DNA from: Verrucomicrobiia bacterium
Lineage (GTDB): Bacteria > Verrucomicrobiota > Verrucomicrobiia > Verrucomicrobiales > DEV007
Reading direction: 5' to 3'
Length of the DNA: 53,319 nucleotides
Assembly (NCBI GenBank): GCA_020440025.1
Contig: JAGROX010000151.1
Location: 3,026 to 56,344, forward strand
The notes under the pieces were generated by a model that was given only the letters and a program-made list of their open reading frames with translations, ran no database searches and was not told where the DNA came from. Position 1 is the stretch's first letter. Every line of letters starts with the position of its first letter. Position numbers and translations under genes: made by a program. Positions 2,016 to 46,300 of this stretch are shown piece after piece.

Positions 2016-3209
2016 ATGTCATCTCTCATCGTCAAGGCACGCGCCCGCATCTACCACGGTCACGAGTGGGTCTACACCAGTGAAGTCCAACGCCTGACGG
2101 GAGATCCTCAACCGGGCGATGTCATCGAGCTGATTTCTGCCCGCAATCGACCGCTGGGATCAGCGATCTACAATCCTGCCTCGCAAATTGTGGCGCGACG
2201 GTTCTCCCGACGGAAGCAGGATCTGGATGCTGATTTTTTCCTGCGTCGTCTGGAGCGAGCTCGCGATCTGCGCGATAAACTTGGATTCTCCGATCCGGTC
2301 TACCGATTGGTCTGGAGCGAGGCAGACGGATTGCCCGGCGTGATCATCGACCGCTACGGCGACCATTTCGTGGTGCAAACCCTGACGATGGCGATGGATC
2401 AACGGAAAGACCTGATCGCCGATGCGATCCAGACGCTGTTCTCCCCGAAATCGATCGTGGAACGCAACGACTCTGCCATTCGCAAGGCGGAGTCGCTGGA
2501 GCAGGTCACTGGCATGCTTCGGGGAAAAAGTCCCGCTCCCTTCGAAATCTCGGTGAATGGGATTCGGCAGATTGTGGATTTGGCAGAAGGCCAAAAGACC
2601 GGCATTTATCTCGATCAGCTCGATGCCTATGTCGCGGTGGCCAAATACGCAAAGGGTCGCCGGGTGCTCGACTGTTTTTGCAATCAAGGCGGCTTCGCCC
2701 TTCACGCCGCCAAGGCTGGTGCCAGCAGCGTGACCGCCATCGATGTGAGTGAAAGCGCCATTCAGGCCACGGCGGCCAACGCGAATCTGAATCAGCTGCG
2801 CATCAACGCCCAAGAGGCCAATGTTTTTGATTTCCTCAAAGAAAGCGAAAGCCAATACAACCCGGACAAACCCGGGGTCGATGGCCTCTACGACCTGATC
2901 GTGCTCGACCCTCCGAGTTTCACACGCAATCGCAAATCAGTGAACGACGCCCTCCGGGGCTACAAAGAAATTCACCTCCGCGCGCTCAAATTGTTGAGTC
3001 GCGAAGGCGTTCTCGCCACCTTTTGTTGCTCTCACCATGTCAGTCGTGAGGAATTCCGCCAAGTCATCTGTGACGCATCGGTGGATGCTCGGAGAACCGT
3101 GCGTCAGATCGGCTCCCATTCCCAGCGTCTCGACCATCCGGTGATTCCAACAGTGCCGGAAACGGAGTATTTGAAGGGCTTTACCTTTCAAGCAGTGCCC
3201 GGTTGGTGA
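2016..3209 (+). CDS. RlmI-family class I SAM-dependent rRNA methyltransferase
   Basis: At 397 aa this matches the COG1092 (YccW/RlmI) family, whose E. coli member makes m5C1962 in 23S rRNA. An N-terminal PUA-like domain (about 1-75, with HEWVYTSEV and GDVIELIS) is followed by a central domain containing LPGVIIDRYGDHFVVQ. The C-terminal Rossmann fold has the SAM-binding stretch VLDCFCNQGGFALHAAKAGA, then AIDVSESAI and the motif IVLDPPSF. The late segment FCCSHHVSREEF occupies the place of the catalytic-loop cysteine in RlmI-type enzymes. The gene stands alone, 126 bp after kamA and 87 bp before the permease-like gene. The exact target nucleotide cannot be proved from sequence because COG1092 members differ in specificity. 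Confidence 0.85.
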   Translation: MSSLIVKARARIYHGHEWVYTSEVQRLTGDPQPGDVIELISARNRPLGSAIYNPASQIVARRFSRRKQDLDADFFLRRLERARDLRDKLGFSDPVYRLVWSEADGLPGVIIDRYGDHFVVQTLTMAMDQRKDLIADAIQTLFSPKSIVERNDSAIRKAESLEQVTGMLRGKSPAPFEISVNGIRQIVDLAEGQKTGIYLDQLDAYVAVAKYAKGRRVLDCFCNQGGFALHAAKAGASSVTAIDVSESAIQATAANANLNQLRINAQEANVFDFLKESESQYNPDKPGVDGLYDLIVLDPPSFTRNRKSVNDALRGYKEIHLRALKLLSREGVLATFCCSHHVSREEFRQVICDASVDARRTVRQIGSHSQRLDHPVIPTVPETEYLKGFTFQAVPGW

Positions 3210-26827: not shown

Positions 26828-26863
26828 AACAGGGTTAGGTCAGCGACTTGACCCTGTTGAATC
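26828..26863. repeat. 36-bp dispersed hairpin element, copy 2 (AGC loop)
   Basis: Identical to 14800-14835 in both 14-base arms and the GAATC tail; only the three loop bases differ (AGC instead of GCT, reverse complements of each other). It sits between the convergent HIT and histidine kinase genes; its last two bases touch the kinase stop codon. Confidence 0.75.
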
Positions 26864-28448
26864 ACTGACCGAATCGGATCTCAAAGCGGGTAATTTCGTC
26901 GGTCGCTTTCCGGAGGATCAACTCGCCCTCGATCGCTCGGACGATTTCCCATGCCAGATTGAGACCGAGCCCAAACCCGTCGATATTTCGGCTGCGCGCT
27001 CGATCCACGCGGTAAAACCGATCAAAAATCTTCTCTCGTGCTTCTTCCGGAATTCCCGCTCCGGTATTGGAGATCTCGAAGATCGCCTCAGCCGTCACCG
27101 GGTCTCGGTAGAGTCGGATCGAGACGACTCCACCCGCTTTGTTGTATTTCACCGCGTTGCTGACGAGATTCTGGAGGGCCTGCCTCATCAGAACATGGTC
27201 GGTACACATCGTGATTCCCGGAGTGACATCGATCTCCAATTTCAGACCTGCATCCTCGCAAAGAATCTCCGCATCTTCGCCGAGAGCTTCGATTTCATCG
27301 GACAGCGAAAAGGTTTCCTTTCGAATCGCCAATTGCCCGGCATCCGCCTGGGCCAAGAGCATTAGACTGCGGGTAATCAGACTGAGCCGCTGGGCTTCCT
27401 GACTGACAACAATCAGATTCTGCTCTGCCGTGGATCCGGGTTCGCACTCTTTCAACGCCGTTTGCACGGAAGCCTGCATCACCGTCAGCGGTGTCTTGAG
27501 CTCATGAGAGACATCAGCGCTAAAACGAACGGCATGACGAAAACTGTGCTCCAGACGATTCATCATGCCATTCAACACCTCCACGAGACGAGAGAGTTCG
27601 TGGTATTCATGAGCCTCTCTGGGGATCCGCTGATCCAACCCGTGAGCCGTGATCCGACTGGCAGTTTCGGCAATGAGGTTCACGGGCCTCATTGCCCTGT
27701 GAGCCACGAACCAACCACCAAATCCGATCACCAGGAGACAAATCGGAAGCGAGAGGAAAAACAGGCTGCGAACACGACGAATCTCACTTTGAAGATCCGA
27801 CAACTCGGTCGCCATCAATACGAGATGTCCATGGTCACGAATCACGCCTGCACGCCACTGATGACCGTTTATTTTCAGTGTGTGAAACGCCACCTTTGGC
27901 ATCCCCGTCGGCATTGGAGGCAGACGCGGCCGTCGATTCTCATCAGGAGGCCCGAATCTCCACGGCTCCCCTTTGGGTCGTCCGGGCCCCATTCCGCGTT
28001 CCTCTTCTAGCAATCGATCCAGATCGAATCCTCCGCCCGGCTTGGGATGGTCTGCATCGCTTCTGGTGGGATGATTGGTCTCAGGGTCACCAAAGTCGTC
28101 GCCGAAATCCTCAGTCGACTTCAGCAGAGTCTCATCTATCTCGGACACCCAATCCTCATCGGGAGCACGGTAGAGAATTTCACCGCCCCTGCCCGTGACC
28201 AATATGAGCCGTTTTCCTTCGCTCACCTCGTCTCCGAATCCGATTTCGAGATTCGCCAGAGTCTGCTTCACATCTCCGCGAGGATGCAGCTCTCGAACCG
28301 TGCGATCGAGCGGGACTGACAGGCGGAGATCGACCGCTTCTCTCAACATTCCGACGGTCAGCATCCATCCGGCCAATCCAAATCCGATGATGACGATCCC
28401 AGAGATCGCCGTCGACAGGAGTGCCAATCTGAGACGAAGTGATTTCAT
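26862..28448 (-). CDS. membrane-bound sensor histidine kinase
   Basis: The 528 residues show TM1 (about 5-32) and a periplasmic sensor part of nearly 200 residues, which includes an acidic/Pro/Gly-rich stretch (about 112-178). TM2 (about 229-249), a HAMP domain (about 250-303) and the HisKA dimer domain with phosphoacceptor H315 in DVSHELKTPL follow. The HATPase domain has LVSNAVKYNKAGG (N box), FEISNTGAGIP (G1) and GFGLGLNLAWEI (G2). It overlaps the stop of the response regulator gene by four bases, so the two form a coupled two-component system. The sensor domain lacks a recognisable ligand motif. The peroxidase gene upstream in the same direction suggests, without proof, an envelope or oxidative signal. 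Confidence 0.9.
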   Translation of the reverse strand: MKSLRLRLALLSTAISGIVIIGFGLAGWMLTVGMLREAVDLRLSVPLDRTVRELHPRGDVKQTLANLEIGFGDEVSEGKRLILVTGRGGEILYRAPDEDWVSEIDETLLKSTEDFGDDFGDPETNHPTRSDADHPKPGGGFDLDRLLEEERGMGPGRPKGEPWRFGPPDENRRPRLPPMPTGMPKVAFHTLKINGHQWRAGVIRDHGHLVLMATELSDLQSEIRRVRSLFFLSLPICLLVIGFGGWFVAHRAMRPVNLIAETASRITAHGLDQRIPREAHEYHELSRLVEVLNGMMNRLEHSFRHAVRFSADVSHELKTPLTVMQASVQTALKECEPGSTAEQNLIVVSQEAQRLSLITRSLMLLAQADAGQLAIRKETFSLSDEIEALGEDAEILCEDAGLKLEIDVTPGITMCTDHVLMRQALQNLVSNAVKYNKAGGVVSIRLYRDPVTAEAIFEISNTGAGIPEEAREKIFDRFYRVDRARSRNIDGFGLGLNLAWEIVRAIEGELILRKATDEITRFEIRFGQ

Positions 28449-29122
28449 GTCGGGGGATTCCCAATGCGATATCCAACACCCCTCACTGTCTCAATCAACT
28501 TACTATCAAAGGATTGGTCGACCTTTTTCCTCAATCTTTGAATATAGACATCGACCAGATTCGTCTCAGGATCGAAGCCATAGTTCCAGACATGTTCACA
28601 GATTTGCGTCCGAGTGAGAACCCTCCCCGGCGCCTGCATCAGATACTCCAGCAAAGCGTATTCGCGCATGGACAGGGAGATCTCTTCACCGGCTCGCCTC
28701 ACGCTGTGATGCAGTCGATCAAGGACGAGATCCTCCACTTTGAGCAGATGATCCGCCTCACCGCCCGAACGCCTGACGACCGTATGCAGACGAGCGATCA
28801 ACTCCTCGATGTAGAAGGGTTTCGTCAGATAGTCATCCGCTCCAAGATTGAGTCCTTCCAGCCGTTCGTCCAGTTCGCTGCGGGCGGTCAATAGGATCAC
28901 CGAGACCGGATTCCCCTGCTTCCTCAGGTTTTTCAAAATGCTGAGCCCATCCCGCCCGGGCAGCATGATGTCAAGAACGATGGCATCGTAAGGTTCTGTC
29001 GTCGCCAGATGGTAGCCATCGTCACCGTCGTGACAGACATCGACAATCATGCGTCGTTCTTCGAGCCCTTTTCGAATGAAAGAGGCAATTTTTTTCTGAT
29101 CTTCGACAACGAGAATGCGCAT
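28445..29122 (-). CDS. OmpR/PhoB-family response regulator
   Basis: The start is taken at the ATG complementary to 29120-29122, which gives the usual MRILVVEDQKK opening and 225 residues; a longer in-frame start adds 18 atypical residues. The receiver domain has the acidic pocket (ED near 7-8), phosphoacceptor D51 in IVLDIMLPG, the T/S switch in LLTARSE, and K in YLTKPF. The C-terminal winged-helix domain ends in VDVYIQRLRKKVD and IETVRGVGYRI, the sigma70-contacting OmpR type. It is translationally coupled to the kinase gene downstream. Targets are unknown; the peroxidase and esterase genes just upstream are candidates. Confidence 0.9.
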   Translation of the reverse strand: MRILVVEDQKKIASFIRKGLEERRMIVDVCHDGDDGYHLATTEPYDAIVLDIMLPGRDGLSILKNLRKQGNPVSVILLTARSELDERLEGLNLGADDYLTKPFYIEELIARLHTVVRRSGGEADHLLKVEDLVLDRLHHSVRRAGEEISLSMREYALLEYLMQAPGRVLTRTQICEHVWNYGFDPETNLVDVYIQRLRKKVDQSFDSKLIETVRGVGYRIGNPPT

Positions 29123-29251
29123 CGGTTTGGCTGCTTCCCTCGAAGACTGACACAGATTGTTGGGTGAGGAAATCATTTGTCTACCGGTTGAATGAACCCC
29201 CGCCCCAGATCCTTCTCGGCCCGAGGCGGCGGCATTGGTGAGTTCTCAGTC

Positions 29252-31066
29252 TCAGCGTCGTCCGCCGCCACCACGAGGCGGGCCCTGACCCGGCAACATT
29301 CCTCCACGTGGCTGGATTTCGAGCGCGCGGGGTGCGATGAAGACGTTGTCTTGGATTTCGCCGGCGATTTCGGTATTTCTCCGGATGATGGTGGCCAAGG
29401 TCTGGCGGTCGATCAATTTTTGAAACTCTCCGTCCAGATAGTTCTGATACCAGAATCGATCGCCATTCCGAAGTCGCAGAAACTGCGCTCGGAGCACGGT
29501 GAAGAGCGTTTCCCCCACCATGGCTTCCCGAACATGGGGTTCGCAAAGAGCGCCTACCCATAGATCGATCTCATTCGGATCGCCGTATACGGCTTCCAGT
29601 TGGTCCTGAACGTCCCGATCCCTCGTGATATCCGAAAACCGGCGCGCGGGGCGCAATCCATAGGCCGCACGGGTGGCATTGTAAGAGGCCAGACCGTGAT
29701 CTCGACCTCGCTGAAGATTCAACGAAGCCAGATCGAATCCTCCTGCTCCGGGAGGTCCAAACAGGAAGTTACGGACATCATCAACCAACAGGGCATCGAT
29801 TTCCTGAGCCTGCTGTCGGGCAAGCCCGCGAAGAACCGGCTCAATGCCGCCCTCATCGGTGAGCAGCGCGGGATCGAAGAAGGCATTCGCCAGCGGAAGA
29901 TTTCCCTCCGGGATCTCATTCCCCCGATGATCCAAGCGCAACAGGGTCGACGACAACATGCTGTGACCGAAACGATAGGCCGAGGTGGCAAACTCGTTGG
30001 CGATTCCGGCATTCATTCGGGGAGAGTATCCGGCATAGCGCGGAATCGCTTTGGGCCCGAGCATAAGAGGCAGGAACTCGTTGTAGGTGATGGCTTGAAT
30101 TTCGGCCACCACGATCACCCGGGCAGCTTCGTAGATCTGATCACCGCTGAGCCCAGGATTGGAGCTGCCCAATACATCGGCCCAGTAATTGTGCTCCCGC
30201 ACAAAAAGAGTGTGCATGGCAGTCAGTCCGACCTGCTCGTTGGCTCGAAAGTCGCCAGCCAGAAAAAACGAGGGATCGTGTTCGGTGGGCGCGTTGGGAA
30301 GCGCTTCCGTATTGAATGGCAGCAAGTCTCCGGCACTCGTCAGGAGCCGCCCGCTTCCGTCATTGGTTCTCAGGGCGATGGCTCGCTCGGCATCTGACCC
30401 GTAGACATTCGAGGCGTCGACATAGGCGGTGATTTCATTGATTTGCTCCCGGACGCCATCGATCATCTCAAAGTAGGACCGATCCAGCCCGATGGTGACC
30501 GTTCCCAGTCCCTGCGGATCGAAAAAGGGATCTCCCGCCGGGACCGGGATGTCGAAAGGCTCCACCGGGTCGGCCACCGGAGTCAGGTCGATGTCATGGT
30601 CGAGAAACTGTCCCCACTGCCAGACGAAATCCGAAGCGCCACGCCGATTGGGTCGGGATTCAGATTGGGCACAGAGCGCATTGCTGATCACTCTGGCGCT
30701 GGGACGATTCTCGCCCGAGGGAGCGGACACTCCATCTGCATAATCTGCGGGAACACCTCGGAGGAAAGGTTGCTCGACGCTCCCCCACTCTGGATTCTCC
30801 ACGTTGTTTCCAGACCCATCAATCGTCCGAAATTCCCCGGGAATCACGATGGAGCGAATTCCCATCTGAACACTGCCCGTACCCGGAGTCATTTCTCTCC
30901 CTCCGGGGGCAGGACCTCGGGTATGGGTCTTGCGCAGGCTGTTTGGTGAGCTTTTCGGGGGCGTCGGCTGCTGTGCGAAGGAGATCGCGGCGATGAGAGA
31001 GGACGCGAGAACAGCTGCAGAAACGATGAGTGAAGTGTGGCGTGGGGATCGGAGGTGAATCTTCAT
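29252..31066 (-). CDS. secreted animal-type heme peroxidase (peroxicin-like)
   Basis: With the start at the ATG complementary to 31064-31066 (604 aa), the protein has a signal peptide (SLIVSAAVLASSLIAAISFA, cleaved near AQQ). The peroxidase-cyclooxygenase fold is clear: distal histidine motif WGQFLDHDIDLTP, calcium-site region TAYVDASNVYGSD, catalytic arginine in FRANEQVGLTAMHTLFVREH, and proximal histidine in TSAYRFGHSML. The bacterial lineage of this superfamily oxidises halides or phenols outside the cell. The C-terminus ends in a Gly/Arg-rich tail (GPPRGGGGRR) of unclear use. It lies 63 bp downstream of the hydrolase gene and 129 bp upstream of the two-component system, all on one strand. 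Confidence 0.9.
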   Translation of the reverse strand: MKIHLRSPRHTSLIVSAAVLASSLIAAISFAQQPTPPKSSPNSLRKTHTRGPAPGGREMTPGTGSVQMGIRSIVIPGEFRTIDGSGNNVENPEWGSVEQPFLRGVPADYADGVSAPSGENRPSARVISNALCAQSESRPNRRGASDFVWQWGQFLDHDIDLTPVADPVEPFDIPVPAGDPFFDPQGLGTVTIGLDRSYFEMIDGVREQINEITAYVDASNVYGSDAERAIALRTNDGSGRLLTSAGDLLPFNTEALPNAPTEHDPSFFLAGDFRANEQVGLTAMHTLFVREHNYWADVLGSSNPGLSGDQIYEAARVIVVAEIQAITYNEFLPLMLGPKAIPRYAGYSPRMNAGIANEFATSAYRFGHSMLSSTLLRLDHRGNEIPEGNLPLANAFFDPALLTDEGGIEPVLRGLARQQAQEIDALLVDDVRNFLFGPPGAGGFDLASLNLQRGRDHGLASYNATRAAYGLRPARRFSDITRDRDVQDQLEAVYGDPNEIDLWVGALCEPHVREAMVGETLFTVLRAQFLRLRNGDRFWYQNYLDGEFQKLIDRQTLATIIRRNTEIAGEIQDNVFIAPRALEIQPRGGMLPGQGPPRGGGGRR

Positions 31067-31129
31067 GTTCACCACTTTGACCGGAGAACATGACGGAACT
31101 CTGGGCAGACACATGACAAAACTGTCATC

Positions 31130-33175
31130 CTACTTCTTCCGGATCGGCAGGAGTTCCCATTTCTCACCGAAAAACCCAGCGGCAGGAATCCCACCCGGCC
31201 AACGAGTGCTCACGGGTTCCTTGAGATCGACCACTGCCCAATCGGGCAGCTTGGGAGTCTGCCGAGCGTTGTTGAGATAGTCATACTCCCGATAGGTGAA
31301 ACCACTGTTGAGAACCAAATAGCGATCGGGATTGAGTGGGTTGGGATAAATCATGACCACGGCGTGATCGCTGGAATCGAACGATTGATCGCCGATCATG
31401 ATGGCATCCTTCTCCCAGTGAATCGGCAGCTTCGCCGCTATGCGCTTGAGGACCGCATTGCTTTGAGGATCGCCCCACAGCACCAAGTTGTGATTGGCAA
31501 TATCTTCATCGGTCACTTCGGCATCGGTTTTGACGCGGGCATCCCCTCGGAATTGGCGACGCCAGTGAGTGATGGCGTGCTCCATCTCGGCGCCACACCA
31601 GCCACCGACTTTGGAGTTCATCGGAGTTCCCGTCGGCGATATCATGAGGAAAGAGTCCATGAAAGCGTCATCGATGGGACCTTGGAGACCATGATGCTTC
31701 GTGAGACCCTCCAACTCTTCGGAGGCAAGTTTCCAAATACCGGCGTCATCTTTGTCAAATCCGACCTCCCATGACCGATCCGTCCAGATTCGGGGAGCCT
31801 GAAGGTTCTTACCATCAATGATCACCTGAGGGATCTCGGCGGGATCCAGCGGACATTCGCCGGAAGGAAAGACCAAGGAAAAAGCCTCAACTCCCTCAGT
31901 CTTGACCTTGATCCGGTTGCCCTCTTCCATGGTCGCATCGATCTGAGCTTTCTCCCAATGCTGGGACATCCGATCCACTCTCACCCAATGCATACGATCG
32001 TAGCGCAAGGTGTAGGTGACAAATCGGACCGTTTGGGGCACCCTCTGCCTGCCGATCTCGGCAATGTTGGCGAGGCGTCCTTCGATCTCGGCCAAAGTTG
32101 CCGGATGCAAGGCATGAGCGGTCTCGGGGCCGATCAGGTGAACGAGGCGCAGCCCTACCTTTTCGGTCGCTTCCACCATCATGTCGGCAGCCTGCTTCTG
32201 CCGATCGATTTCCCCACTGTAGGCAATCGTCGGGGTGTTGGAGAGGTTGATGGCCCAGTTGGTCGCGTCATACCACCGCCAGAGCTTCTCCTCCCACCAG
32301 GTCGGCGAGAGGGTTTCTCCCTGAAAAGTCTTCAAGAAATCGGGAGTCTCCGAAAAACCCGCTCCCGGTTGAGCCCCAGCCCAGAGACCGGCGTGATGCA
32401 CCGCAAACTGCCAACAGGCGGCTCCTCCCATGGAAAATCCGCGAACAAAGATTCGATCTTCGTCGATGCGGTAGTCGCGGCGAGCATGATCCAACGCTTC
32501 GAACAAGTCGACTTCTCCCGCAAACTTGTTGGCATTTGAGTAGCGCCCATAGGGATGGAGGACGATGGCATTTTCCGGCTTCACTTTTCCACCCGAGCCC
32601 TTGGCCCGCTGCTGGAGAAAGGACACTTCACTGAGTTTTTCGCCGCGACCATGAAACCAAAAATCGAGACGAATTGGTTCGCCGCCGTCAAAATCGTAGC
32701 CGGCTGGAATTTCAAGGCCGTACGGCTGAGCCGATCCATCGATTCGGGAAAGATAGGCCCGGATAACGTTGCCCGTCTCCCGAGTCCAGGGAGTCTCACC
32801 CGCTTTCAAAGCAGCCGCCCTGGTCATGCCAATCTGGAGGAGTTGAAACGACCATTCTATTTCCTTGGGAGAAAAGAACTCACCATATTTCAAGGCATCG
32901 CGAACCGAGCGGTGACAGATCTCGACATCCGGGAGATAGGCATCGATGACGGCCGCATGCTCCTTTTGACCTCGGAGTGATTGGATCGCCAAGTCGAGCA
33001 ACTCCAGATTTTCTCCCAACTGCTTCGTCTGCTCGGGCGAAACGACAATTCCTTCGGGAGGGACGGGGCGCACCTGCTCAGGCAGATTGTCGGAGGGTCC
33101 ATCGGCCAAAACCACATGACCTGTATTGAGCAGGATGAGGGAGAGCATTGAGATGCCAAACTTGGAAAGCTTCAT
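31130..33175 (-). CDS. secreted prolyl-oligopeptidase-like / esterase-type serine hydrolase
   Basis: The 681 residues start with a signal peptide (KLSKFGISMLSLILLNTGHV, cleaved near VLADG). An N-terminal helical region is followed by an alpha/beta hydrolase core: LDFWFHGRGE (oxyanion side), AIVLHPYGRYSNANKFAGEVD, RIFVRGFSMGG (nucleophile serine), PTIAYSGEIDRQKQ (acid candidate) and a histidine near ETAHALHP. A long C-terminal part of about 300 residues has its own strand-rich character (WTDRSWEVGFDKDD, NHNLVLWGDPQSN, ILPIR-like ending). Similar exported hydrolases are common in Planctomycetes and Verrucomicrobia and are thought to act on polysaccharide esters or peptides. The start has one of the few Shine-Dalgarno-like sequences here (GAGGA). 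Confidence 0.75.
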   Translation of the reverse strand: MKLSKFGISMLSLILLNTGHVVLADGPSDNLPEQVRPVPPEGIVVSPEQTKQLGENLELLDLAIQSLRGQKEHAAVIDAYLPDVEICHRSVRDALKYGEFFSPKEIEWSFQLLQIGMTRAAALKAGETPWTRETGNVIRAYLSRIDGSAQPYGLEIPAGYDFDGGEPIRLDFWFHGRGEKLSEVSFLQQRAKGSGGKVKPENAIVLHPYGRYSNANKFAGEVDLFEALDHARRDYRIDEDRIFVRGFSMGGAACWQFAVHHAGLWAGAQPGAGFSETPDFLKTFQGETLSPTWWEEKLWRWYDATNWAINLSNTPTIAYSGEIDRQKQAADMMVEATEKVGLRLVHLIGPETAHALHPATLAEIEGRLANIAEIGRQRVPQTVRFVTYTLRYDRMHWVRVDRMSQHWEKAQIDATMEEGNRIKVKTEGVEAFSLVFPSGECPLDPAEIPQVIIDGKNLQAPRIWTDRSWEVGFDKDDAGIWKLASEELEGLTKHHGLQGPIDDAFMDSFLMISPTGTPMNSKVGGWCGAEMEHAITHWRRQFRGDARVKTDAEVTDEDIANHNLVLWGDPQSNAVLKRIAAKLPIHWEKDAIMIGDQSFDSSDHAVVMIYPNPLNPDRYLVLNSGFTYREYDYLNNARQTPKLPDWAVVDLKEPVSTRWPGGIPAAGFFGEKWELLPIRKK

Positions 33176-33282
33176 TCAGCGATCCTCGCACCGGGGCCTC
33201 GCATGACCCAAGTGAAAAAACGCGCCATGGACAAGACTGCGTTTGGTCAGTGGCACAACGAAAGCTATGCTCAATTCCAATC

Positions 33283-34314
33283 ATGGAATTTGTTCTCAAG
33301 AAAAAGGCCTTCATTCCGGTGAGTTCACATCTGAGTGAATATCTGGAGTCCTTCGGTCGATCCTCCGCCCTTCCTCCCGTCTATGAGGATCTGCATCGCT
33401 ACGCGGAATTGTTTCCGCTTTTCGACAAAGAGGGCAACGACACCCTCTGGAAAACCGTTCACTACGATACCGCTACCCGGGCGGAACTGAACGAGCGCCT
33501 CACCACCATCTACGCCCGATTAAAGACGGGCGAGGCTCGAGTCGTCGATCACCTCCGACTGGAGCGGGTCGACTTTTGTGATTTCGGCAATTCCCGGCCC
33601 TTTCGAATTCGGATCATCAATAATTTCAACGACAACTACGACCACTTCTACGTGAAGGTCGCCGACTCCTCTCGGATCTACGGTCTGGAACTGGAACACA
33701 TTCTCTCGCCCAATCGGATCAACTACCTCGTCAATGAGAACACCATTATCGAGGAACACATCGCCGGTGTGCCAGGAGATGTGTTTATCCGAAACTATTT
33801 CGATCATCCCGATACCAATTCTGTGCGTGTCGCCAAGGAATTCGTCAAGTTCAGCGAACGCTGCTTCTGTCGCTTGCTGGGAGACATGAGAAGCTACAAC
33901 TACGTAGTCGATATCACACCGGACTTTGAAGAGGTGCAGTATCGGGTCCGGGCGATCGACTTTGATCAGCAATCCTACGAAGGCCGGAAGGAGATGTATT
34001 TGACCCAGTTTTTCGCCGAGAACCGCGCCGTGGTGGAACGTTGCACCGAGCTACTCAACTATCCGACGATGCAACAGTATCAGAATGAAGAGCGAGCCCT
34101 GATTGCCCGCCGGGTGAAAGTCGCGCAACGCCGGCTGGATGCGATGTTCACCAGCATGCAGAAGGATGAGATTTCGCCTCCGGAGAAGGCGACTCAGTTG
34201 GCGCACGAGCTGGGTGAGTATCACCAATCTGATGCCTTTAAAAACTGTTCCACGATGAGTGAAGTCGTGATGGCGAATCTAAAGGTGTGCATTGAGAAGG
34301 CGGGGCGCCGCTGA
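33283..34314 (+). CDS. unnamed protein with hallmarks of a protein-kinase-like fold
   Basis: Not a family I can name. The start at ATG 33283 gives 343 residues; an earlier in-frame start would overlap the divergent hydrolase promoter. The order of motifs resembles kinase-like enzymes (aminoglycoside phosphotransferase/HipA type): K125 in FYVKVADSS as an ATP-binding lysine, acidic E136/E138 in GLELEHILSP, a hinge-like IIEEHIAGVPGD (155-166), a catalytic-loop candidate GDMRSYNYVV with D201 and N206, and a metal-binding IDFD (D226). There is no signal peptide or membrane segment. The region between 227 and 343 is helical and charged. It converges on the giant exoprotein gene with nine bases between the stops. 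The kinase call is inference from motif order and may be wrong. Confidence 0.5.
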   Translation: MEFVLKKKAFIPVSSHLSEYLESFGRSSALPPVYEDLHRYAELFPLFDKEGNDTLWKTVHYDTATRAELNERLTTIYARLKTGEARVVDHLRLERVDFCDFGNSRPFRIRIINNFNDNYDHFYVKVADSSRIYGLELEHILSPNRINYLVNENTIIEEHIAGVPGDVFIRNYFDHPDTNSVRVAKEFVKFSERCFCRLLGDMRSYNYVVDITPDFEEVQYRVRAIDFDQQSYEGRKEMYLTQFFAENRAVVERCTELLNYPTMQQYQNEERALIARRVKVAQRRLDAMFTSMQKDEISPPEKATQLAHELGEYHQSDAFKNCSTMSEVVMANLKVCIEKAGRR

Positions 34315-34323
34315 GGTTTTCAC

Positions 34324-37300
34324 TCACTCGGCACCCTGTACCCCGGGCTCGACGGGTTCGGACAATGCCGTCGATCCCATTTCTTCCAGCCTCATTTGGA
34401 GTTCCTCCAAATAGCGGCGGAATTCATCGTCATCGAGGGTCGGCGAATCTCCCATCGGTAGGATGTAGATGGTGCCTTGGTAATCACTACCGAAGACATC
34501 GAAACTACTCGAACCGGAAGAACCTTCCGTGTCGTAGCTGACTGAGAAATCCTCTTTCGTGCTGTCACCCCAGGGATCACGAACTTCGCGATGCTCCACG
34601 ACAAATTCCGTCTGGTCGTCATTGAAGCGATCATCCAACAGTCCCTCCAAGACGAAGCCAACCGGCACAAAGGGAGAGTTCGGTGAGAGTCGACCCGGCG
34701 TGAATCCGACGGTACCATCCGGCAGCGTCAGGAACAGTCCCAGCTCCTCGCCGGGAGTTCCAAAGATCACGATGTTGTTTCCATTCGGCCCCACCACGGT
34801 AAAGAGCGGAACGGAGCCTTCTCCAGTCCCAGCGGAACCCGCGGCCCCACCGTCGATCGCTCCGGCACTCCCAGCAGCTCCGGCCGCACCTCCCGCCGCC
34901 CCGGCAGCGCCGCCACCTGGAGTGGTCGGCACGACTGGCGGGCCTGCCTGATTTACCACCACGGTATCATAGTAGAGACTGTAGTTCCCCAGGACCGGGC
35001 TGTAATTCGCGCTGTCAGAAGTCACGGTCAGGGAAGCACGATTGGCGGCCGCATTCGACAAATTGTCATGCTCGCTCGGCATGGCTAACAGGGTGCCTCC
35101 ACCATTGACCTGATTGATGACCAATTCATCGATCTGCTGATTCATCGGATCGACATTTGCACCCGGATAGGCCAACCCATTGAGAGAGGTGCCAACCAGT
35201 TGGTTCTGTGGGCGGCCGGGAAGATACAGTCGTAGTTCGCCTCCTGGGGATGATGCCAAGACCGAATCGGCGTCACCGATCAAGGCGCCCATGCCACCAC
35301 CTGCCGCCGTCGGATTCAGGTGGCTGACCGCCACGTAGGTGTCGCCGGTGATGCTCAATGCCTGGTTGTTGAGGTCGGGGTCCAGATGACCGATCAGCCC
35401 ACCGGTGAGAGACACATCCCGCCCCGCCGTCACCTGAACATCTCCAGCCACGGTGCCCGCACCGCCCACCAATTGGGCAGGGACTGCTACCGGAGTGAAT
35501 TCCTGATCGCCATGACCGATCTTCGCATAAGCGTTGTCGCCCGCTCCGCGTGTGATTAACACATCGTTTCCGGCCGTGGCGAAAATGTCGCCGCTCTTGG
35601 CACCTCCAGCCAATCCACCGCCATTGCCGATCTGTGCGGCGGCCCACGCAGCAGCACCACCGGTCAGAACAATATCGCCACCAGCATCGGCCACCACATC
35701 GCCAGCCGTATTGAAGACGGAGCTTGAGAAGTATCCCCCGCTGCCGACCATAGCCATGGACCCGACCGCAGTATCGGAAGCTCTGAGTCGCAAATCACCT
35801 CCCGCAATCACCCGCACCAGATCATCGCTGGCACCCAGCGTATTGCCGGGAGAGTTGAACCCACCAAGACCAATCTGAGAGAAGGATCCTGCTCCGATTC
35901 CCGCAGTCAAAGCAACATCCTGGAGGGCTGCCACCTGGACGCTTCCTGTCTTGGTTCCGTTCACCTCATAACCCCCGTTTCCGATCAGGGCGAACGCGCC
36001 ATCCCCACCTCCATCGAGAGTGACGGCTCCACCATCGGCAGTGACCGTCACATCTCCATTGATCGGCGTAACGCCCACGTTCCGGCTACCGCCTCCACCG
36101 ATGATGGCGAAGCTATCGGTAGCCGCGCCAGCACTCAGCTGAACATCACCTCCCGCCGCACTAACCACCACATTTGAAGAAATCGCTCCTCCACTCATCA
36201 GACCACCGTGGCCGATCTGAGCAAAACTGCCGTCTCCGCCGCCCATCAGTGCAATGGAATCTGCTTCGACAATAACATCGCCGTCCTCAGCCCCTTGATT
36301 GCCCGTCCCACCGTGACCGATCTGCGCGGAACTTCCAGCGCCTGCTCCGCCCGTCAGAGCGACACTTCCTCCCACCGTGGCATTGATCAATCCTGCCCGA
36401 TCTCCAACGGTATTGATGCCACCGTGGCCGATGGTGCCATATGCTTGATCGCCCACACCGCCGGCCACCGCGAGATCGCCTCCCAATGTCACCTGAATGA
36501 CACCAGTCTTGCTACCGATCTGACCAATACCCCCATGCCCGATCTGAGCATAACTCTCTGCCGACGTTCCACCTTCCACCAAAACCCCTTGGACAGCCGA
36601 CACCTCAATGTCGCCAACCAAACTACCCAAAGACCGGGCGTGTCCGATTTGGGCAAAGCCTGCCAGACCGCCTGAGGTGCTTCCTTTGAGCGTGACTGAT
36701 CCACCAGCGCCTTGAGTCGCTCTCACAATCACGTTCCCCGCGAGATCGCCACTGGCATTACCGCTTCCAGCCTCGTTGACGATGCCGCCACCATTTCCAA
36801 TGAGGGCGAAACTCTCTTCCTGAGTTCCCGCAGTCAGACTCACATTGGCAGCCTCCACCTGAATCGTTTCCGAGGCATCCCCGTGGTCCCCTGAATTGCC
36901 ATGGCCACCGTTTCCGATCTGCGCATAGTTTGGAGTCAGATTGTTATTGATCCCATTTTCTCCGCCGCCGCCCTGCAGGATCACATCGCCATTCGAAGCC
37001 AGCACGGTGATGCTGCCGCGAGTGGTCGATGTCTGCTGGGCTCCACCGTTTCCGATCTGAGCGTAGCTGTCATCGTCGTTGCTACCCGATTCCGGACCTC
37101 CCGTGAGAGAGATCGTTCCATTCGCCGAGGTGACGCTGATGTCCGCACGATGGGTTCCGCTGTTCGCCAAGCCACCGTTGCCCAACTGGGCGTATCCGTT
37201 GTTTTGCGTGCCCGCAACAAGTGATATATCCCCCCCAAAGGAAGCTGAGATGAAATCATCACTGTCTCCATTGGTCACACCGCCAATCACTCCCGCTCCT

Positions 37301-40300
37301 CCGTGACCAATTTGGGAATAGTTGAAATCTCCGTTGCCTCCTCCTACCAAGGTCAGCGCACCTGCCGCACCTGATGAGGTGATCTCGATACTCCCCGTAT
37401 GAATACCACCTGAGTCTCGTCCGCCGTGTCCGATCTGGGCATGCGTATTGCTCGTCGTATTGCCAGCCGACACATTCATGCTTCCACTGAGATCCAGGCG
37501 AATGTCTCCGGTGGCGTTGCCGTCCCCGTTATATCCCCCGTGACCAATCTGCACGTAGGAAAGATTTCCACTGCCAGCATCAAGGGAAACATCCGCTGCC
37601 GCACCCAGGCGAATGTCGCCGGTTTTGGTGCCCACATCGGAATTGAGACCGCCATGACCGATCTGGGAATAGCTTTCGCTCCCCGTGCCGCCATCCAAAG
37701 TCACGTTTCCACCACCAAGCGCAACATTGTTGATGGGATCATAGTTGAGGTAAATTCCTCCCATCAGGTTTCCGTCCGACTCGTGACCACCATGACCGAT
37801 CTGAGTGTAGCCCCGAGTTCCGGCACTATTCATGTCGATTCCCCCGAGAGAAACCACGACGATGGCTTCATCGGCCAATCCCTTGTCTCCATCGTTGGAC
37901 CGACCTCCGTGGCCGATCTGAGTCCACGCATCCGTTCCGCTACCCGCATTGAGCGTGGTGGCACCGGTTGAGAAAGTGACCACATTCCCGCTAGCTGCGC
38001 CGGCGCCTGCGTCACCACCGTTCCCGACTTGGGAGTAGGTGCCCGTGGCTGATCCGCCGGCCAGAGTGATTGCCCCTCCTCCGTTGGGCAGTCCCGTGAG
38101 GGGATTCACATTCAGGAAAATATGCGCATGATCCTCTCCCGAAGCAGAACCGCCACCATTGCCGATCTGGGCGTAGGACTGTCCACTGGTTCCGCCAGCC
38201 AGGCTAATGCCATTGGCGCCACTGACCGCGATCACCTCACCGGCAAGGCCATGATTCCCAGGATTCAAATGCCCTCCATTGCCGATCTGTGCATAGGCAT
38301 CCGTCGCCACAGAGCCGCCCTGCAGGCTGACACTTCCCAGCGACGTGATCGAGATCGATCCGTTGGTGTCTCCAGCGCTCTGATCGCCACCGTGACCAAT
38401 CTGGACATAGGTATCGCTGGCGCTACCGCCGTTGAGAGCCACATCTCCGGTGGCGTTCAATACGATATCGCCACTTGCGTTGCCATCGGCCAATTCTCCG
38501 CCGTGACCGATCTGTGCATAACCATCGGTAAATGTCCCACCGTTCAGGGCCACGTTGGCTACCCTCGCAATGGTAATATCACCGCTCCGATCTGCAGGGC
38601 CTGTGCCCGCATTCCCGTCCGCCCGGGAGCCACCATGCCCGATCTGAGCATAGCTGTTGGTTCCACTGCCATTGAGGGTGATGTCGCCCGTTCCGGTTCC
38701 CGCCGCCTGGTTGATGAAGATATCGGAATCACTCGCCCCCAAGGTCATGGTGTTAAAGCCACCGTGCCCGATCTGGGCGTATGAGTTGCCCGAATTCCCC
38801 GTGTCCGCATTCAAATCGATGCCTCCAACCACATCTATCGTGATGTCCGCACCGGAAATGCTTCCCGTCGCGCCTGATCCACCATGCCCCACTTGGACAT
38901 AGCCGTTGTTGGAGTCGGCGGTAAGAACCAAATCACCACCAGCACCGAGGTTGATCAAGCCAGATGTCGTGAAGCTTCCCGTCAAACCACCATGCCCGAT
39001 CTGCGCGTAGGTATCGGTGGACCTGCCTCCGTTGAGGTAAACGGAACCCACAGCGGTCACGGCGATATCACTGACGAAAGTCCCGCCACTGCTTCTCCCT
39101 CCATGTCCGATATGAGTGTAGTTGCCCGTCGAACCACCCCCCGTCATCGAGATGTCTGCTGAAGAATTCACCGTCACTGAGCCCGTCTGATTGCCACTCG
39201 ATGACTGGCCTCCGTGTCCGATTTGTGTGTAACCTGTGGAACTGCCTCCCGTCATCGAGATACCTGAGGAAGAATCAACCGTCACCGAGCCCGTATGGTT
39301 GCCGCTGGAGGTGTGACCACCGTGACCGATCTGGGTGTAGCTCTCGCCGCCAGTTCCCCCGAGGAGGGTCACGGGTCCACCATTAAAGCTGATGTCAGCC
39401 GAATGGTTTCCGCCCGCCGTACGTCCCCCGTTGCCAACCTGAGCATAGGAACGGGTTCCGCCCCCGAGAAGACTCAAACCATTGATCGCCGAAAGACTGA
39501 TCACGTCACCAGCCACTCCATGGTCAGCACTGTTCTGGTAGCCCCCGTGGCCAATCTGAGCATAGGCATCAGATCCGACACCTCCTTGGACTGTCAACAG
39601 GCCCAACGCATCAATGGTAATGGAGCCGCTGGTGTTTCCATCATTGCCTGTGGCACCACTGTCATTTCCTCCATGCCCGATCTGGGCATAGCTGAGGTTC
39701 TGGCCGCCCGTCACCGAGACATTGTCTGCTGTCCCAATGACAATGTCCCCGCTCTTGGTTCCCGCAAGGTTTCGCCCACCATGCCCGATTTGGGCCGTGG
39801 TTCCGTAGTTCGGTTCCGCGGTGGTCTTCGTGGTGGCCAGAAGCACGACATCTCCTCCACCAGCTGCGGTGTCTGAATCTGGATCGTAGTTGAGGTAGAT
39901 GCTTCCCGAAAGGGTTCCATCGGCATCATACCCGCCATTGCCGATCTGGGCGTAGGCCCCGTAGGTCGTTCCAGCAGTATTGCCACCTGTCAGGCTGATC
40001 CCTTGGTTGGCGATCACCACGGTGGCGTCATCCAACACACCATGATTGGCTCGATTGTCATGGCCACCATGGCCAATCTGGGTGTAGGCATCTTGATCGG
40101 TGCCTCCGGTCAGGACCACCTGGTTGGAGGACACCACCCGGATATCTCCCTGCGTCGCACCGCTTCCACCGATGCCACCATGCCCGATCTGGGCGTAGTT
40201 CTGACTTTGGCTGCCTCCGTTCAGTCTGACGTTCCCGGCCCCATTGACGAGATCTCGGCCCACGATACGAATATCACCGGCTTTGGTTCCGCCCACAGAT

Positions 40301-43300
40301 AGGCCACCGTGTCCTATCTGAGCATACGCATTGCCACCCGTTCCCGCGTTGAGCGTCACATCACCCGGGTCGCAAAAGCTGATTGTGATATCCGCCGTGT
40401 CAGTGATGTTGGCACTCACAGCTCCTTTGCCTCCATGACCAATCTGGGCATAGGCATCACTGGTGCCGGCGTTGAGACTGAGACCACCGTCCTTCAGACG
40501 AACGTCGATTTCCCCGCTGATGTCTCCGCTGCCGTTGCCAAAGAATCCCAACTGGGTCGCGGCAGAAGAAGTGGCGGTGCTGGCGTTCAATTCCAGACCA
40601 TATCCATAGACCATCGTTCTTCCCAAGCGAGATCCTACCCGCAACGCTGTCGTCTGCGAGGCATCCCCGAGGTAGACCGTGCCGTTGTTGTTTCCGAAGA
40701 CACCACAATCGTTGAAGTCGAGAACCGAGGGAACTATGGCGGGAATGATCACCGGATCACATGGCACGCCAAGGTCAAGACTCGCACCAGTGCTGGAACT
40801 GCCGTCCCATCCAGCAATCAGGATGAGATTCCCGGCACCAGCGTTCTGGTAACTGTGGAGCATGGTGATGTCGCCCCCTGTCATAACGATGAAGTTGAAA
40901 CTGTTGTTTGTCGCAACGTCGGGGCCTGACAGCACGATATCGACGTCCCCAGGATTCGTGAAAACCACGTTTCCGGACCCAATGCTTCCGTTGATCATCG
41001 CGCTCAAGCCTTCGAGGGCATTGGCGGGAATGGTCTGGGAACGGTTGGCAACAACCTGATATCCATTTCCACCCAGATAATTCCCCGCTCCCTCAAGTCC
41101 GCCGGCATTGTTGGTCCGATGGTGCAGATAGGTGTTGCTGCCGACACCACCTCCATTGGTGAGGGTCAGATCTCCGTCGGCAAAATATTGGATTCCTCCC
41201 TGTCTGGTCCCCCCAGAGGTACCACTGTCGAGCACTCCGGCAGTGCCAACGCCATCACCATGACCGCCCATGGCATAGGCATTGGTCCCGGCACCGCCGG
41301 TCATCACGACACGGCCTCCAGCATCAGCACCGATGAAAATTTCGCCGGACATCGCCCCGTTCGTGTTGATACCGCCATGACCGACTTGAGTAAAACGTCC
41401 CGTTGAGGCGCCGTCACCACCTCGAAGATTCACTCCCCCACTCCCTGCGGTAACGACAATGTCCCCCCGATAGAGAGAGCTTCCTGACCCGGAAAGCGTG
41501 CCTCCATTTCCGATCATGGTGTAGGCATCGGTGCCAGCACTCTGGTTGGAATCAAGAATCACTGCCGTGGTCGCGTGGACGCAGATATCTCCCGTGAGGT
41601 TGCCTCCCGCATCGTAGCCCCCCATGCCGATCTGGGCGTAGGACTGGACCCCTGACCCGGAGATCAACTGGACGATGTCACCAGTGACTTCGATCTTATT
41701 CCCCAGCGCTCCAAGAGTCCCGGTATTCTCATGGCCGCCATGTCCGATCTGCGAGTAGTTTGGCGTATCTGCCCCCGTATTCGTGGGAGTGGGATTGGTC
41801 CCTGCCCGCAGTTCAACCAGTCCCCCGGCATTCACTGTAATATTGCCTCGGATCGTGTTGCTGGTCTGGGCACCACCATGACCGATCTGTGCGTAGGCAT
41901 CATCGCCCCCCGCTTGTCCGCCGGTCACCAGCACGTCACGGCCCGCCGTCACCGAAATGTCACCCAACTTGGTTCCGCTCGACGCCAAGCCACCATTTCC
42001 GATCTGGGCCAAAGTGTTGTTGGTGGTTCCAGCCACCACCCGCACATCGCGAGTGGCACTGACCTCAATCAACTGACCGTCGAGCCCCTTGTTTCCTGTG
42101 TCTTGAGTGCCGCCATGACCGATCATCGCCAAGGCCTCGTTTCCGGTTCCGCCCAGAACCGCCACATCCGCATCAACACCGTTGGCGATCACCGAAATAT
42201 TTCCATTGGCTGATCCGGAACCCGATCGCCCGCCGTGGCCGACTTGAGCCGTCGCATTCGAATCCGTTGCGCTGTCTGCTCCGGCTTGAATGGTGATACT
42301 TCCGTCAGCCGTGGTGATCGCGATGTTTCCCAGCTGATTGCCATTTACCAGGTTTCCACCGTGTCCCACCTTCGAGTAGGAATTGCTGCTGGGGCCGCCC
42401 ATAATGTCCACACTACCTGATCCCGTCATCGTGATGTCACCCGCCACGTCGGCATCAAAATCGTGACCGCCATGGCCGATCTGGGCATAGGCGAGACTTC
42501 CGCCAGCCTCAATCACGACATCTCCCGGATCGCAGAATGTGATGGTGATCGGAGCGCTGACGGCCGTGCTGGAGGCACTCCGCCCCCCATGACCGATCTG
42601 GGTATAGGCGCCCGACGCATTGCCTGAGTCGAGATTCAGGCCACCGCCCTGAAGGTGAAGGTCGATTCCGCCAGTGATTGCACCACCCCCATCACCATAA
42701 AATCCGAGATGAGTTGCCGCATTGCTGGTCGTGTCACTACCGAAAAGTGCAAGACTATTGCCCGCCAAAGTCGTCAATCCATCGCGGCTACCCACTCGAA
42801 CGGCACTGGTTTGCGCCGCGCTTCCCAGTGTCAGCCCCGCTCCGTTGTTCCCAAAAGAGGTGCAGGTATTGAAATCGATCGAAGCCACGGCTCCGGTAAC
42901 CACCGGGGCGCAAAAATCACCTCCAGCAAAGGTGACGCCTCCCCCCGCAAAACTTCCACTCCCATCCCAACCGGCGACCAAGGTCGTCTCACCAGTCCCT
43001 GCATTCTGATAGGAACTGAGCATCTCCAGACTCCCTCCCGTCATCAGGACAAAATTGTCCGCGGTGTTGACGTTCCTATCCAAACCCGCAGCAATGCTCA
43101 AGTCGATCTCATTAGAAAAGGCGGCCCAAATCGGACCCGTGGCAAAGTTGCCGTTGAGCATCGTATTCACGTCGACAAGCGCCGAATCGTCCACGGTGAC
43201 GCCACCATTACTGACCATCTGGAAACCATCGCCACCGAGATAGTCGACCGTCGCCAAGCCGCCGTTGGTCTGATGGAAAACGTAGGCATTGCTCCCGGCT

Positions 43301-46300
43301 CCGCCTCCATTCGCTGCCGTCAGAGCCCCATCGGCAAACAAGTGTACCCCACCTTGGCGCGTGCCGGTCGTCGAACTCGCTCCATCGCCATGGCCGAGCA
43401 TGGCATAGGAACCACTGCCGCTACCGCCATTCACCGCGATCGCTCCTCCATTTGCCGCAATCACATTCAGGTTTCCACTCATGTCACCGCCCGACAGCAG
43501 GCCACCGTGCCCGACTTGCGCGAAAGCGGAATCCCCAGCTCCGGCCGTCAAGGCCACCCCTCCCGTTCCTGTGCTGCCAGTGGTCAGGGTGACGTCGCCG
43601 GATTTGGTTCCCTGAAGATTGATACCGCCGTGTCCGACCATCGCGTAGGCCGCCTCGCCGCCGTTGGTGGCCGCATTGACCGTCGTCCCATCGGCTGAAA
43701 CGACGCAAATCTCGCCGTCGATCTCCACCAGCTCGACACTTTCGACCGCACCGCCGTGCCCGATCTGAGCGCTGCTGCCGAGGGTGCTGCCTGCCAGGGC
43801 ACCTCCACTGACCAAGTCGACACTTCCACTGGAATGGACTTCGACCTTACCGCTGAGAGTTGCCGGTCCTTCGGCGTCGTTGAGGTTGTAGGCGGAAATT
43901 CCGTCACCGCCGTGACCGATTTTCGCTCCGTTGCTGGCAAAGAAACCACCATCCAGCCCGATATTACCGCCCTCAACCAAGATGTCTCCAAACGCGTCGA
44001 AATCAGCCCGACTACCATGATGTCCGATTGAGGCGTAGCGGCCTGTTGCGAGCGCCGAATCTCCCTCCACTTGGCCACCAGCCAGGGTGATGTTGCCACC
44101 ACTGCTGCGAACGGTCACATTTGCCCCCGTCGTCGCACTTCCATAACTGACGCGTCCAGCGAGGTTGTTGATGTCTGAACCACCATGACCGATGGCGGCG
44201 TGAGCGCCGTCGTTAATGCCCCCCGTCACTGAGATGTCGCCGACCGCATTGACCGTCACGTTTCCAGTAGCACCCGCCCGCAACTCATAGGTCGGTGCAG
44301 GACCTTGGCCTGTTGGTGCGGCCAGCGCCACCTGCTGCATCACGAGCGCATCAAGGGCCAAGCCATCTTCCCTAGCAATCGCCCGGACCGTGTAGGTGCC
44401 CGGTGAGTTAAACGTCCAAGTGGTCGCGGTTCGAGGAGTGGCCCCGGCATTGTTAGCTTCGGCGGCTCCCGTCAAGGACCATGCCGGATTGTCGAAATTC
44501 GAGTTGCCGCCTTCGGCATATTCATACCAATCGGCGATCGCTCCTCCATTTCCGTCTTTCAGCTCGACCACATCGAAAAAGATCGAATCACTACCGCCAT
44601 CGTATCCTGTCCACCGGGGAAAGAATTGATAGGTGCCTGGATTCGTGACGGTGATCTGGTAGGTGACTTCGCGTCCCGTGGTCAAGGGGCCGACGCCACC
44701 AGCGCCCTCCTCCAACTGCAGGTAAACTCCACCCCGAGGATTGTTAAACAAACCCGGTCCCGGGAACGGATCGGCCCCAGTGGGAACCACGACCCAGCGA
44801 TTGCTCGGATTCGTCAGATAGCTTTCGGCCTCAATGACGATCTGGCCATTGACCTCCACGAAGTTGTTCCCGTAGCCAGCCGTAGCTCCCTGAAGAGAAT
44901 GCCCGATCTGTCCAAAATTGTTGGTTCCAATCGAACTATCTCCAGCGGTTCCTCCGGCCAGTACATTGACCGCTCCACCGGCATCGACACCGATATCGCC
45001 ATCGTAGTAACCCGTCGAAAAGAGCCCCCCATGTCCGACCAGGGCATAGGATGCGTCGCCTCCTCCGGCGATCACGTCGACGTTGCCACCCGCGGTCAGA
45101 TTGATCGCTCCGGTTCCGTTTCCAAGGGAATTGATACCCCCGTGACCGATCTGGGCGAACTGACCCTCGGCTCCGAGGCTGCCACCGAGAACCGAGATCG
45201 CTCCGGCACCGGCATCGACATCGATCTGTCCCGTCATGTTTCCGGCACTGTCGTAACCCCCGTGACCGATCTGGGTATAGGCCCGGTCGCCGAGGCGTGT
45301 GCTGGAATCCACTGATACCCCCGTGGTCGCGCTGACAGAGATGGCGCCATCACGAGAGAAGTTTCCCGTCTCGGCGCCGCCGTGCCCGATCTGCGCGGAA
45401 CTGAAGCTGTGGTCGCCCGCCGTTTGCAAGGAATTGGCATCATCTCCTCCGCCATTTCTCAGGGTCACGGCACCACCACCCGTACTGACGGTAATCGCAC
45501 CATCGGCGGCACCCGTTGCGCGGAATCCCCCATGACCAATCTGGGCTGCGGTCAACTCGTGGATAATTCCACCTGAAAGCGAGATGTTTCCTGCCGTGGT
45601 GATGGCAGAGATCGCCCCACTCTTGGTTCCGTCAGCCAGATCACCCCCGTGACCGATCAATGCGTAGTTGTGATCCCGACCGCCCCCGGTCACGGAAATC
45701 CCCGTGGCGGCATTGAGCTGAATCGGTGCAGTGCGGCTCCCGTCTCCGGCATATCCCCCCAGTCCGATCTGGGCATAGGCCTGACGCCCATCCTGATTGG
45801 ACGAACCCGCATTGCCAGCAGTGACTTCAATAGCTCCCGCAGAAGTCGTCACCTCGATCGAGGTGGCACTCATGTTCCCGTTTGCCCCAAATCCGCCGTG
45901 CCCGATCTGGGCAAAAGTGATGTCATTCGTGCCACCCACCAAACGGATGTCATTCACTGCGGTAACTTGAACCTGTCCGCTGTGATTCCCGCTGGCGCCA
46001 TGGCCGCCATGGCCGATCAGCTTGTAGGCGCCATCCCGGACTCCCTGCAACAGGGTAACCTCATCAGCACTGGTGACCGTGATGTCACCGCTGTGATTGC
46101 CAGTTGCCGAAGTGCCCCCATGTCCGACTTGGGCGTAGGCAAATTCACCGCCACCCCCACCATTGCCCCCAACGAGGTCCAGGCTTCCTGCCGTGATATC
46201 GATCGTGATATTCCCGTCGTTGTCGCCGACGTTTTCGTTCCGACCGCCGTGCCCGATCTGAGCATAGCTCTCTCGGCTCAAACCCGCGCGGACCACGACA

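Follow-up and report, generated by a model that had tools for sequence, protein, structure and literature searches.

How does a bacterium control an animal-type heme peroxidase that it secretes, and which signal would call for it? Bacterial enzymes of the lactoperoxidase type are, to our knowledge, known mostly from sequence, and their cellular role is largely open. The question is raised by a draft genome of a bacterium of the class Verrucomicrobiia, order Verrucomicrobiales (GCA_020440025.1; 6.38 Mb in 500 contigs, 87% complete), in which a gene for such a peroxidase is followed by the genes of a two-component system. We analysed a window of 53,319 nucleotides around this locus, positions 3,026 to 56,344 of contig JAGROX010000151.1, together with related loci in other genomes. 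Gene order and shared upstream DNA make it probable that the peroxidase, response regulator (RR) and kinase genes constitute an autoregulated, CusR/HprR-like two-component module for extracytoplasmic heme peroxidases.

A secreted peroxidase gene precedes a two-component system

Four genes lie on the minus strand of the window: an exported hydrolase (31130-33175), the peroxidase (29252-31066), an RR (28445-29122; 225 aa from its likely start) and a sensor histidine kinase (26862-28448; 528 aa). With the likely starts, hydrolase and peroxidase are separated by 63 bp (31067-31129) and peroxidase and RR by 129 bp (29123-29251), while the RR and kinase genes overlap by 4 bp. These coordinates bear out the gene set, single strand and gap lengths reported in a first-pass annotation of the interval 29252-33175, outside which the RR/kinase pair itself falls. 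Promoter-like matches in the region (5, versus 2.6 in shuffles, standard deviation 1.7) and terminator-like matches (6, versus 6.3, standard deviation 2.6) were near chance.

The peroxidase open reading frame (ORF) spans 29252-31114 and, from the likely start at 31066, encodes a 604-aa protein whose N-terminus resembles a signal peptide by eye. It matches the Pfam profile PF03098 over its full length (profile positions 1-530 of 530; 525.5 bits against a cut-off of 25, E = 1.8e-157), and among solved structures it matches CyanoPOX, a lactoperoxidase from a cyanobacterium, best (PDB 8s6c, 600.7 bits). The motifs QFLDHD, DFRANEQ, YRFGH, LNLQRGRDHG and TAYVDAS, aligned to CyanoPOX residues, cover the distal His, the catalytic Arg, the proximal His with its Asn, the calcium site and the heme-ester Asp and Glu. 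The protein thus belongs to the peroxidase-cyclooxygenase (animal heme peroxidase) superfamily and is predicted to be active as a peroxidase. It has the distal DHD, R..E, proximal His, Asn..Arg and calcium-site motifs in common with CyanoPOX of Cyanobacterium sp. TDX16, but carries a Gly/Arg/Pro-rich C-terminal tail in which no PEP-CTERM motif was seen by eye; it also sits in an RR-kinase unit, whereas the available text on CyanoPOX (PMC11776367) describes no regulation. The first-pass annotation had considered animal-type peroxidases scarce in bacteria. This holds for our 14 control genomes, none of which contains a PF03098 match, but not for the family of this bacterium, where the peroxidase is found at E <= 1e-50 in 29 of 74 genomes, nor for the genome contigs in which a pattern scan confirmed 216 peroxidase loci. 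Among the best 80 of these 216 loci, which were those used here, the closest named relatives are mostly Verrucomicrobiales metagenome genomes.

The RR combines Response_reg and Trans_reg_C domains (Pfam), the layout of OmpR-type regulators, and the kinase comprises two membrane segments, a PAS/PDC-like sensor domain, HAMP, HisKA and HATPase (Pfam, NCBIfam and AlphaFold). The best NCBIfam models are cztR_silR_copR (TIGR01387) for the RR, at 253.2 bits and below the cut-off of 279.2, and cztS_silS_copS for the kinase, at 235.8 bits and below the cut-off of 292.55; on the HprR and PhoB equivalog models the RR scores 213.1 and 200.2, below cut-offs of 353 and 296.2. The AlphaFold model of kinase residues 1-300 (mean predicted local distance difference test, pLDDT, 77; predicted template modelling score, pTM, 0.58) shows a PAS/PDC-like sensor domain that carries a disordered insert rich in Pro and Gly. 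Many of its structural matches are tied, the sensor domain of CusS (Z = 10.9) among them, and none names a ligand.

The regulator adjoins the peroxidase in related genomes

To follow this gene order across the family, we searched the 74 genomes for the RR (E <= 1e-70, identity taken over the aligned part) and obtained 25 places of at least 68% identity. Nineteen of them adjoin a peroxidase, 15 colinearly, the window's own included, and 4 divergently; in the draft assemblies, two of the linked RRs (G013, G081) are interrupted by a stop codon, and one peroxidase (G029) is cut by a contig end. The colinear order is found in 14 other family genomes, which we take to be more than chance, and G001 holds an additional colinear locus with an RR cut off after 58 residues. 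The first-pass annotation had suggested searching for the cluster elsewhere, and its peroxidase-RR order proved conserved at these places. Three further RR places (G028, G034, G067) lie directly behind a gene for a CCP_MauG di-heme peroxidase; the last three are at contig ends (L128, L129) or follow a protein of 239 aa to which Pfam assigns no family (L127). No RR place of this search with 65% identity or less stands beside a peroxidase place (E <= 1e-50) in the 74 genomes, and Pfam assignment of one flanking ORF at each of 10 of the more distant RR loci returned no peroxidase and three YHYH proteins. A parallel association links RRs to YHYH-domain proteins: at L141, L145 and L153, distant RR-kinase pairs (60-64% RR identity) adjoin secreted members of that class.

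A tree built from 54 RRs unites the family rows linked to a peroxidase or to MauG as 24 rows with support 94/89, a count that includes two other rows, one truncated and one long-branch. A 20-row subgroup receives support of 100/98, the three MauG-linked rows are nested inside the 24-row group (100/95), and the RR of a Holophagales locus (L033) forms a long branch outside it.

Peroxidases are also found beside two-component systems whose RRs belong to a different lineage (36-39% identity), arranged divergently at L126:6842-9739 and L131:7455-10230 and as a colinear kinase-RR-peroxidase series on a Pseudomonadales contig (L041:6239-9683). The association of peroxidase and two-component system may have arisen more than once. 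Other recurrent peroxidase neighbours, named by eye (glycogen-debranching-like, MurJ-like and DUF1501-like genes), occur mainly in one genus and were set aside as shared background.

A predicted three-half-site operator lies upstream of the peroxidase

The linked loci share an upstream element in which ATGACA-N4-TGTCAT is followed by TGTCAY, 23 bp on from where the second half-site begins, with the consensus ATGACA-N4-TGTCAT-N17-TGTCA. The window copy (31090-31128, minus strand) is located in the hydrolase-peroxidase gap, 25-62 bp before the peroxidase start codon, and begins one base past the hydrolase stop codon; this predicted RR operator consists of the dyad ATGACAGTTTTGTCAT (31113-31128) and a third half-site, CGTCAT (31090-31095), with one mismatch. 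Some relatives have an extra intervening half-site (by eye at L105, L118 and L119), which the window lacks. Half-sites and spacing equal the CopR/CusR consensus TGACA-N4-TGTCA, as it appears in the available text of PMC12428095 and PMC11195947. The TGACA-N4-TGTCA element precedes both the presumed target of the RR and the RR's own operon, and the RR is predicted to bind it.

Alignment of 37 sites revealed an A at column 51 in 24 of the 37 and a T at column 55 in 28, a hint of a -10 element about 11 bp beyond the operator, with the start codon at about column 63. The corresponding position in the window (columns 50-55) is 31074-31079 on the minus strand. This geometry would suit an OmpR-type activator.

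The operator marks two unrelated peroxidases and a third class of secreted protein

Allowing at most one mismatch, the three-half-site pattern was found in 24 of the 74 family genomes, in 37 rows representing 36 unique sites, and the reversed pattern, run as a control, returned none. The genes directly downstream, from which target classes were assigned, encode animal-type peroxidases (18), CCP/MauG proteins (9; five confirmed by Pfam and four assigned by similarity to the L172 protein), secreted YHYH-domain proteins (7; six confirmed by Pfam, two of these with a PEBP domain as well, and L206 by tblastn) and products without a clear class (2). No copper/silver detoxification, copper-efflux, multicopper-oxidase or phosphate gene was recognised directly downstream of the 36 sites. 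At L205:5954 (minus strand, G066) the gene behind the operator encodes a secreted peptide of 48 aa, rich in Pro and Gly, that resembles the beginning of a truncated YHYH protein, and at L136:7833 (plus strand, G061) a second, unlinked peroxidase (54% identity) has an operator of its own.

In the genome of the window, the dyad occurs at 12 places with at most one mismatch, 3 of them exact, and only two of the 12 are followed by the third half-site at the fixed spacing. One is the window's peroxidase site; the other, within L172:6589-6640 on another contig, lies about 200 bp before the listed start of a gene whose product is a CCP/MauG protein of 1237 aa, secreted and bearing two CxxCH motifs.

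Among the best 80 of the 216 peroxidase loci (several phyla, 1.11 Mb), a set that overlaps the 74 family genomes, the element was present with at most two mismatches in nine, each time shortly before the peroxidase; four further rows had three mismatches, two of which are opposite-strand readings of the same sites, and the reversed control gave one match at up to three mismatches. One of the nine is the Holophagales locus, which unites peroxidase, RR, kinase and a two-mismatch operator. Outside the family, eight operator sites in 7 of 382 genomes of the class (control, 2) amount to a count in the range of chance; four of the eight adjoin an RR of 58-63% identity, so that the operator is again paired with this RR lineage. 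Within the family, RR and operator co-occur (RR with operator, RR alone, operator alone and neither in 17/8/7/42 genomes; P = 9e-6, ignoring relatedness).

The proposed circuit and the evidence against it

An adjacency that survives inversion and a shared operator just upstream of the peroxidase agree with the first-pass suggestion that the neighbouring sensor and regulator control the secreted peroxidase, as they probably do. In the circuit we propose, the membrane kinase would sense a signal outside the cytoplasm and phosphorylate the RR, which would act as an activator, bind the operator upstream of the peroxidase gene and raise the levels of peroxidase, RR and kinase, presumably from a common transcript. 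The same operator would bring the unlinked secreted di-heme CCP/MauG peroxidase of the same genome under this control and, in relatives, an animal-type peroxidase, CCP/MauG peroxidases or YHYH-domain proteins.

Several observations weigh against such a circuit. Of the 25 genomes whose RR has 68% identity or more, eight lack the operator at up to one mismatch, though three of the eight (G006, G022, G029) carry it with two, and 7 of the 24 operator genomes lack an RR at that level. Most operator sites fall within one genus and are for this reason not independent. As the loci in G028, G034 and G067 illustrate, the RR can lie elsewhere than beside an animal-type peroxidase, and the peroxidases at L126 and L131 have their different two-component system and no operator. 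The -10-like element is weak, with a complete TAnnnT in just 4 of the 37 sites, and one promoter-like match sits in the peroxidase-RR gap, though such matches are near chance in the region. Finally, no His, Met or Cys reaches 80% conservation in the sensor region of 24 kinases, nor 90% in 21.

Oxidant or metal as the signal

The available text of PMC8249747 states that HprR and CusR of Escherichia coli recognise the same DNA sequence, although one pair responds to H2O2 and the other to copper; HprSR is further described, in the part of PMC9302797 at hand, as responding to HOCl and inducing hiuH-msrPQ. The RR studied here is related to that of HprSR (YedVW), but falls short of the HprR model cut-off, and its targets are peroxidases, whereas the hiuH-msrPQ genes controlled in E. 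coli serve the repair of oxidised protein. By analogy with HprSR, the input to the module might be H2O2 or hypohalite at the envelope, consumed by the peroxidases, a last step that we put at slightly under even. An oxidant is favoured because of the target genes; the family scores and the operator fit a metal as well.

The leading alternative therefore keeps the module and changes its signal to copper or silver, making the pair a CusRS/CopRS-type metal sensor that induces secreted heme proteins in metal stress. The RR is of the OmpR, cztR/silR/copR type, both proteins score best on the corresponding NCBIfam models, the operator has the CusR/CopR consensus, and the sensor domain of CusS is one of many tied matches to the sensor model. 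Against this, both scores are below cut-off and no conserved metal-ligand residue is seen in the sensor; the operator has a third half-site at a fixed distance, a difference from CusSR/CopRS; and 34 of the 36 sites precede peroxidases or YHYH proteins, rather than the copper-efflux genes of CusSR/CopRS, with no copper-efflux or multicopper-oxidase target recognised among the genes directly downstream. YHYH domains are predicted, in the available text of PMC7824862, to be zinc-binding, metal-dependent hydrolases, which does not settle the choice between oxidant and metal. On balance we regard a copper or silver signal as unlikely, if well short of negligible.

It is also conceivable that the peroxidase is a Mn(II) oxidase, as animal peroxidases of the MopA type reportedly are, and the regulon serves manganese oxidation; the available text of PMC11930936 and PMC6247904 counts animal heme peroxidases among the Mn oxidases of bacteria. 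Pseudomonas putida GB-1 likewise combines an animal-type peroxidase (MopA) with a two-component pathway required for Mn(II) oxidation, but the accessible part of PMC11930936 describes neither a peroxidase-adjacent regulator gene nor a CusR-type operator. The closest solved relative of the window's enzyme is a lactoperoxidase that oxidises halides and phenols (PMC11776367, available text), and the recognised targets include no multicopper oxidase, which leaves this explanation improbable.

The hydrolase and the giant gene as neighbours

Still less probable is the arrangement proposed in the first-pass annotation, in which hydrolase, peroxidase and two-component system form one inducible operon for extracellular oxidation or cross-linking, acting on a giant fibre. 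The exported hydrolase is an esterase-like alpha/beta hydrolase of 681 aa, with GFSMGG at residue 246 and a Peptidase_S9 match (PF00326, 28.0 bits versus a cut-off of 22.6), and its tight single-strand spacing to the peroxidase speaks for membership. The operator, however, stands between the two genes, directly after the hydrolase stop, and none was found upstream of the hydrolase itself. We examined the 24 best hydrolase orthologue places (54-100% identity), with one (G030) not included in the comparison of contexts. The orthologue adjoins a peroxidase only in G000 and G001, two genomes of one genus; in G082 and G085 it is followed by a CCP/MauG gene, and in G061 by an operator whose target was not recognised; and at all 18 further loci no peroxidase, MauG, YHYH gene or operator lies within the stretch compared. 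Nor was the hydrolase found in the other peroxidase-RR loci examined. A core role was rejected on the strength of those 18 loci; the hydrolase probably stands outside the regulated unit, and the cases in G082, G085 and G061 are the reason for keeping it as a weak neighbour.

A gene on the opposite strand (33283-34314), without a Pfam match, separates the hydrolase from the giant gene. With the hydrolase it forms a divergent pair in G000, G001, G002 and G018 (31130-34314 in the window; L218; L225), and it is the divergent partner at two of the 18 further hydrolase loci; in G013 (L105) its counterpart faces the peroxidase directly, without a hydrolase. The giant open frame itself (34324-53319, minus strand), the "giant fibre" of the first-pass annotation, has at least 6331 codons and many QIGHGG-like repeats, and runs off the window. 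With its last 2 kb as query, no match was among those listed in 101 loci, and, with the opposite-strand gene also intervening, the suggested link between peroxidase and fibre is not supported.

The tandem TGTCA half-sites of some relatives in the 37-site alignment resemble a Pho box, which would make the RR a regulator of the PhoB type that responds to phosphate. This is scarcely credible given the RR's score below the PhoB cut-off, the inverted repeat at the operator core and the lack of any recognised phosphate gene among the targets.

Implications for extracytoplasmic peroxidases

In the titles and opening abstract lines of the open-licence papers listed by our searches, we found no animal-type peroxidase under a CusR-like operator and no regulon shared by peroxidase, MauG and YHYH proteins. 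Taken furthest, and tentatively enough that we would not expect every part to hold, the module may belong to an envelope-oxidant regulon, in which one CusR/HprR-like sensor lineage and one operator would serve interchangeable, structurally unrelated extracytoplasmic heme peroxidases of the lactoperoxidase and MauG/CCP types as well as YHYH proteins, the signal would be the peroxidase's H2O2 substrate or hypohalite product, and the circuit would tune oxidation at the cell surface. The regulator and its predicted operator tie a lactoperoxidase-type enzyme to a second, unrelated peroxidase, and would offer a direct way to the inducer and hence to the role of these enzymes. Adjacency to the regulator has passed from one peroxidase type to another, which may serve as a natural test of the signal that the sensor perceives.

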